From Clostridiales bacterium (lineage in GTDB: Bacteria; Bacillota; Clostridia; Lachnospirales; Lachnospiraceae): a stretch of DNA of 64,000 nucleotides. The position numbers were made by a program, and so were the translations under genes. The notes below the pieces were generated by a model. That model had not been told where the DNA came from, made no database searches, and saw only the letters and a list, made by a program, of their open reading frames with translations. The stretch is taken from positions 20,265 to 84,264 of the forward strand of contig JAJBUA010000031.1 in assembly GCA_020860565.1 (NCBI GenBank). Reading direction: 5' to 3'. Shown piece after piece: positions 28,173-54,093 of this stretch (position 1 is its first letter; every line of letters begins with the position of its first letter).

Positions 28173-28330
28173 CAGGAAAGTAGTCCCAGAGAGGGAAACA
28201 TATCCGCAGAGGACATTTTTCACGTCGGCACTTAGTGAGCCGGATGATTCTCCGGCGAACTTAGCACCGTTACGTGAAAACCTGAGTGCAAACGGTCCTC
28301 GGAGGATATGTTTTCCTCTCTGGGACGGAC
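28173..28330 (+). ncRNA. candidate structured RNA element, copy A (strand inferred from neighbours)
   Basis: CAGGAAAGTA + 23-bp closing stem GTCCCAGAGAGGGAAACATATCC/GGATATGTTTTCCTCTCTGGGAC (one G-U) + conserved core + CGGAC; same 158-nt length and architecture as 53936-54093 with compensatory changes. Confidence 0.7.
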
Positions 28331-28374: not shown

Positions 28375-28403
28375 TTGACAATTAAAACAATTCATAGTAT
28401 ACT
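28375..28403 (+). promoter_or_regulatory. sigma-A type promoter of the tRNA operon
   Basis: TTGACA - 17 nt - TATACT, ending 15 nt before the first tRNA. Confidence 0.85.
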
Positions 28404-28418
28404 TTCATCGTTCGACAT

Positions 28419-28492
28419 CGAGGCGTGGCTCAGTTTGGTAGAGCGCTGCGTTCGGGACGCAGAGGTCGCAAGTTCAAATCTTGTCGCCTCGA
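28419..28492 (+). tRNA. tRNA-Pro (anticodon CGG)
   Basis: CGAGGCG...CGCCTCG acceptor, CTGCG-TTCGGGA-CGCAG anticodon arm, GTTCAAATC T-loop. Confidence 0.93.
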
Positions 28493-28519
28493 TTGCTTAA
28501 AAAGCATACACATTGACAT

Positions 28520-28591
28520 GGCCTTGTGGTCAAGCGGCTAAGACGACGCCCTCTCACGGCGTAATCCCGGGTTCGATTCCCGGCAAGGTCA
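28520..28591 (+). tRNA. tRNA-Glu (anticodon CTC)
   Basis: GGCCTTG...CAAGGTC acceptor, ACGCC-CTCTCAC-GGCGT anticodon arm, CCGGGTTCGATTCCCGG T-arm. Confidence 0.93.
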
Positions 28592-28598
28592 TTATAAG

Positions 28599-28628
28599 AT
28601 GCTTTGGATGCGAGTCCAAAGCATTTTA
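28599..28628 (+). terminator. hairpin with short T-run between tRNA-Glu and tRNA-Thr
   Basis: ATGCTTTGGA-tgcgag-TCCAAAGCAT then TTTATT. Confidence 0.55.
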
Positions 28629-28630
28629 TT

Positions 28631-28703
28631 GCTTCCATAGCGCAGTTGGTAGCGCACTTCACTCGTAATGAAGGGGTCGCCAGTTCGAGTCTGGCTGGAA
28701 GCT
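28631..28703 (+). tRNA. tRNA-Thr (anticodon CGT)
   Basis: GCTTCCA...TGGAAGC acceptor, CTTCA-CTCGTAA-TGAAG anticodon arm, GTTCGAGTC T-loop. Confidence 0.93.
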
Positions 28704-53772: not shown

Positions 53773-53935
53773 GAACGTATGAAGAGTTCTTCCCTCTCAG
53801 GGACTACTGTATTGGCATGATTATATTATAAAAATTTGTTTAGCAGAATCTCATAACTGGGGGTTGACGGTGCAAAAATATGTGTCTTTCATCGAATTTT
53901 CCTAGTAGATATTCCAATAAGCTTATTATATATGC

Positions 53936-54093
53936 CAGGGAAGTAGTCTCTGCAGGGAAATCATATCCGCAGAGGACATTTTTCACGTCGGCACTTAGTG
54001 AGCAGGATGCTTTTCCTGCGAGCTTAGTACCGCTACGTGAAAACTTAAGTGCAAACGGTCCTCGGAGGATATGATTTCCCTGCAGAGACGGAC
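53936..54093 (+). ncRNA. candidate structured RNA element, copy B (strand inferred from neighbours)
   Basis: Perfect 23-bp closing stem GTCTCTGCAGGGAAATCATATCC/GGATATGATTTCCCTGCAGAGAC; core nearly identical to 28173-28330. Confidence 0.7.

Follow-up and report, generated by a model that had tools for sequence, protein, structure and literature searches.

What are two intergenic stretches of identical length, located on the same strand 25.76 kb apart in the genome of a Clostridiales bacterium, that share a nearly identical core while their outer arms diverge in sequence and yet remain complementary? The initial annotation of the window (a contiguous stretch of 64,000 nucleotides from this genome) described both of them, copies A and B, as a candidate novel structured RNA, and took the compensatory changes in their closing stems as an indication of selection on structure rather than on an encoded protein. 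That observation proved correct in every detail, whereas the reading placed upon it is only partly supported. The structure is real, strongly covarying across many genera, not protein-coding and uncatalogued, but it belongs to a high-copy dispersed repeat rather than to a two-copy RNA gene, and the matching changes in the closing stem need not mean selection on structure. None of the outcomes named beforehand as refuting the annotation—a match to an Rfam family, a lack of covariation across more homologs, or homologs with non-complementary arms—was encountered.

Structure of the two copies

The 25-base core shared by copies A and B matches exactly twice in the window, against 0 expected in shuffled sequences. 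In their 23-bp closing stems (P1), seven positions differ, six of them on both sides, while the remaining one is a G-U versus an A-U pair. Copy A folds alone into P1, a 3x3 internal loop, a 6-bp stem (P2), a long hairpin (P3) with a 2-nt bulge and an apical hairpin, and a small hairpin (P4) (Table 1). The predicted energy of this 144-nt branched fold is -83.9 kcal/mol, with z = -11.2 as RNA, so that chance is excluded. Nearly the same fold is predicted for the strand as DNA (z = -10.4). Comparison with Rfam 15 returned only three tRNAs in the window above the curated gathering thresholds, and a search of the region at E<=10 gave only chance matches far below threshold, HEARO not being among the families matched.

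Table 1. Positions in the window of copies A and B, their predicted parts and neighbouring features.
Feature	Position	Strand	Observations
Stop of a 1479-aa ORF	28117		Precedes copy A
Copy A, whole element	28173..28330	+	Stem 28183-28326 plus short conserved feet; R1 match 28181-28330, 138.4 bits
Copy A, P1 5' arm	28183..28205	+	23 bp, variable but complementary
Copy A, P1 3' arm	28304..28326	+	One G-U pair with the 5' arm
Copy A, P2 5' side	28209..28214	+	GAGGAC; 3' side 28295-28300
Copy A, P3 core hairpin	28217..28280	+	TTTTCACGTCGGCACTTAG...CTTAGCACCG-TT-ACGTGAAAA; contains the most conserved residues of the family
Copy A, P4 small hairpin	28286..28293	+	GT-GCAA-AC with GNRA loop; stem covaries
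Promoter-like site and three tRNA genes	28375-28703		TTGACA-17-TATACT, followed by the tRNA genes, directly after copy A
Copy B, whole element	53936..54093	+	R1 match 53944-54093, 141.8 bits
Copy B, P1 5' arm	53946..53968	+	3' arm 54067-54089, perfect complement
Relic of a third copy	53784..53829	-	5' flank GCCAATACAGTAG plus part of an arm only; head-to-head with copy B; the sister genome has longer copies here

A family of dispersed repeats

Copies A and B are not a pair. The genome of the window (G000) holds at least 42 copies, and its sister genome (G019) holds many more. More distant members in the genus share only the core, but keep the fold. A covariance model was built from 17 sequences, in which 29 of 39 pairs changed on both sides in an alignment not fitted to structure. 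With this model the element was found in 158 of 397 genomes of the same family of gut bacteria (141 of 334 genera), the name Lachnospiraceae being consistent with, but not proved by, these results. In a class-wide draw of 391 genomes, every hit fell in that same family. Copy numbers vary widely among carrier genomes, with about 130 copies in G157, 76 in G084, 31 in G224 and 15 in G437. No match was found in plasmids with a query from the group of copies designated group A. Phage sequences gave two weak partial matches with a copy from another genus, in unannotated faecal records, and viral contigs gave none for an exact core pattern. No papers on such repeats in this family were found in the literature searched.

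Each unit, of about 145–185 bp, comprises the sequence-variable P1, an internal loop, P2, and two hairpins, namely the conserved P3 core (ACGYCGGYACUUAG...CUUAGUACCG-YU-RCGU) and P4. Over 53 sequences from about 40 genomes, 96.1% of cells pair, against 60.4% in shuffles, and 37 of 39 pairs show a change on both sides. Although this alignment was fitted to the model and leans towards it, slid versions collapse to 32–46%. P4 carries a GNRA loop in 53 of 53 sequences (GAGA 24, GAAA 13, GCAA 8, GCGA 4, GGGA 3, GGAA 1), with variable N and R and invariant A and G around it. Many P3 residues (CG-C-G..CTT, TTA-G...C-G-YT-C..GT), including the YU bulge, are nearly invariant or conserved, and the outer stem of P3 swaps Watson-Crick pairs with almost no G-T or A-C. 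The loops and core are therefore probably recognised by something conserved, and it is for the core that selection is better shown.

These features would also be expected of a functional structured RNA—a 3'-UTR element or small RNA in many copies—whose whole fold, P1 included, is kept by selection for base pairing. The extent of covariation favours this possibility, as does a sense bias in G000 and G019, where the upstream gene is co-directional 38 to 13 according to a simple ORF caller, although orthologous loci in this set make the counts not fully independent. However, the bias is absent in other genera (16 to 18), G-U pairs are rare in the core, and the copy number ranges from none to about 130 in related genera. 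Together with the behaviour of the P1 arms described below, this makes the explanation unlikely, although action as RNA remains possible.

Several copies depart from the standard unit. Loci L056, L057, L058, L059, L060 and L040 carry an extra perfect hairpin of 43–45 nt (TCCATATGACGTG...CACGTCATATGGA or a close variant) at one fixed position inside P3. Loci L089, L045 (contig C71 of G019) and L075 (C10 of G019) contain tandem repeats of only the right part of the element (95- and 60-nt units), as if the 3' part could duplicate alone. Four copies of G000—L050 (C97), L052 (C23), L055 (C34) and L087 (C6)—are interrupted at the same place, just after ACGTGAAAACC before P4, by the same sequence, TGATATGTAATGACTTTTGTCAAGATGTAGAGG..., which is probably an insertion sequence that prefers this hairpin, although it runs into contig ends too soon to be identified. 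A similar end lies in genome G020 (L279), apparently in a coding gene.

Joint change of the P1 arms

In group A, 56 distinct arm pairs carry 53 different 5' arms, yet 35 of them are perfect over 23 bp, against 0.7 when arms are shuffled among copies, and Watson-Crick pairing amounts to 95.3% against 68.9%. At the eight loci shared by G000 and G019 with both flanks aligned, P1 changed on both sides 18 times and on one side twice, while independent change at the same per-site rate (38 changed sites of 368) would give about 2 and 34. The 9.8% of positions changed on both sides is close to the divergence of the flanks, which are 84–96% identical. The ortholog of copy A shows five two-sided changes, four of them within five bases.

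Compensation through disfavoured intermediates should be slower than neutral. On the other hand, unbiased copying of one arm onto the other predicts just the rate observed, and also predicts equal G-T and A-C mismatches, which in the P1 stems of the unselected copies number 21 and 21. In the family-wide alignment, however, G-U exceeds A-C (about 61 to 20 without one doubtful column), though that set was chosen and aligned by the model. Template switching that repairs stems, leaving perfect stems with clustered two-sided changes, is documented (PMC8794818); here, the pattern is measured as joint drift at about the flank rate over orthologous loci. Conversion of one copy by another could produce some of the two-sided changes at loci with common arms, but at two of the loci (L054 and L012+) the arms are peculiar to the locus and unlike other copies, so that such conversion can explain only part. 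Arm-to-arm copying in DNA is thus the best account of P1, and explains its changes better than selection.

Genomic context and arrangement

The units occur in head-to-tail arrays with a period of 164–211 nt in G157, and in head-to-head pairs in genomes G023 and G084. In G084 and G157, the core sits inside larger inverted repeats, and three loci of G084 (L240, L245 and L256) are larger clusters that join two subtypes of the element with other conserved segments ending in TAAACTGyAGnTTA inverted repeats. In group A, conservation stops about 15 bases outside the stem, with CCAATA on both sides, and no inverted repeats were seen beyond P1. According to a simple ORF caller, gene contexts are convergent in 25 cases and divergent in 4 over two sets together, although orthologous loci in the first set make these counts not fully independent. 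This location near gene 3' ends is the placement known for REPs (PMC3733652).

Sites lacking the element in the sister genome look like deletions or partial remnants, and neither a clean empty site nor a target-site duplication was recognised among them. Structured MITEs such as bcr1, NEMIS and RUP resemble the element in their size of about 150 bp, their dispersed, intergenic and non-coding nature, their predicted fold and, for some genera, the outer inverted repeats. In contrast to them, conservation here lies in the centre rather than at the ends, no target-site duplication was found, and the element extends through a large part of a bacterial family.

Candidate mobilisers

The high-copy extragenic palindromes, the head-to-head pairs and the intergenic 3' location, together with a GTAG tag at the 5' foot in group A, raise the possibility of a giant REP mobilised by a RAYT (TnpA-REP, Y1 tyrosine transposase). 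REPs carry a GTAG or CGTC tag at one foot; here, GTAG is frequent in group A, but is mostly replaced by CAG in other genera, while the 3' foot is often CGTCC or CGGAC. Y1_Tnp was not detectable in 8 of 12 carriers, including the complete genomes G437, G278 and G328 and the 76-copy G084, and only a 60-aa fragment was found in G000. In addition, Y1 genes in the genus are not flanked by the element, and the unit is a branched fold of about 150 nt with a conserved core instead of a simple hairpin of 20–40 bp. This explanation is therefore disfavoured, although absence of the transposase today does not exclude past use.

A non-autonomous guide-type RNA of a TnpB/IscB element (omega-RNA, HEARO-like), or a retron-like RNA, is suggested by the presence of a structured sequence in many ORF-less copies, and the variable terminal inverted arms recall retron a1/a2. 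However, besides the lack of any Rfam match, PF07282 (TnpB) was not detected in 6 of 13 carriers, including G000, G084 and the complete G328, and no transposase-like ORF was seen beside the copies examined, the ORFs between nearby copies in G000 being what look like ordinary host genes. Neither Y1_Tnp nor TnpB was detected in G084 and G328. Judged on TnpB and on the ORFs beside the copies, this is the least likely of the alternatives.

A structured single-stranded DNA recombination site, acted on by a recombinase on the folded strand in the manner of integron attC sites, which are defined by RYYYAAC/GTTRRRY core sites and cassettes, would account for the variable but complementary stems, the tandem arrays and the conserved loop positions in one strand, which also folds well as DNA. 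Nevertheless, no cassette genes were noted between tandem copies, the internal anatomy is different, no recombinase was tied to the element, and GNRA is better known as an RNA motif. This makes the proposal improbable.

Interpretation

Copies A and B are best placed in a new, family-wide set of dispersed, non-autonomous repeats, REP/MITE-like in organisation, with a conserved, structured core; the probability of this reading is estimated at about 0.6. The analysis itself establishes the fold and its conservation, the high copy number, the pairs and tandem arrays, the location near gene 3' ends, and the joint change of the P1 arms at orthologous loci. The rest of the model is inferred. The units would have spread in the past as passive mobile DNA, by means of an unidentified trans-acting factor recognising the conserved core as ssDNA or as RNA. 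This mobility is inferred from distribution, with no autonomous partner identified among the transposase families searched, and any function as RNA is likewise unproven. A mutation in one P1 arm would be quickly copied to, or erased from, the other by template switching within the palindrome, so that the arms stay perfect while drifting at the neutral rate. Units would persist after stop codons because a stable hairpin there is harmless, or helps to end or protect the mRNA. Against this reading, the GNRA loop suggests RNA rather than DNA.

A more tentative possibility, compatible with the same evidence, is that of a new class of mobile element whose conserved unit is a structured RNA (a three-way junction with a GNRA hairpin) bound by an unknown protein shared by this bacterial family, spreading without IS200/IS605-type machinery, with arms that reset by self-templated copying.

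The element appears to be an undescribed repeat family in some 40% of the genera of a major gut bacterial family, and among the commonest non-coding sequences in some of those genomes, without an Rfam entry or a described mobiliser. It also provides a measurable case in which perfect covariation of a stem arises at about the neutral rate, which represents a warning for RNA discovery by covariation alone, and a direct test system for template-switch correction of palindromes.
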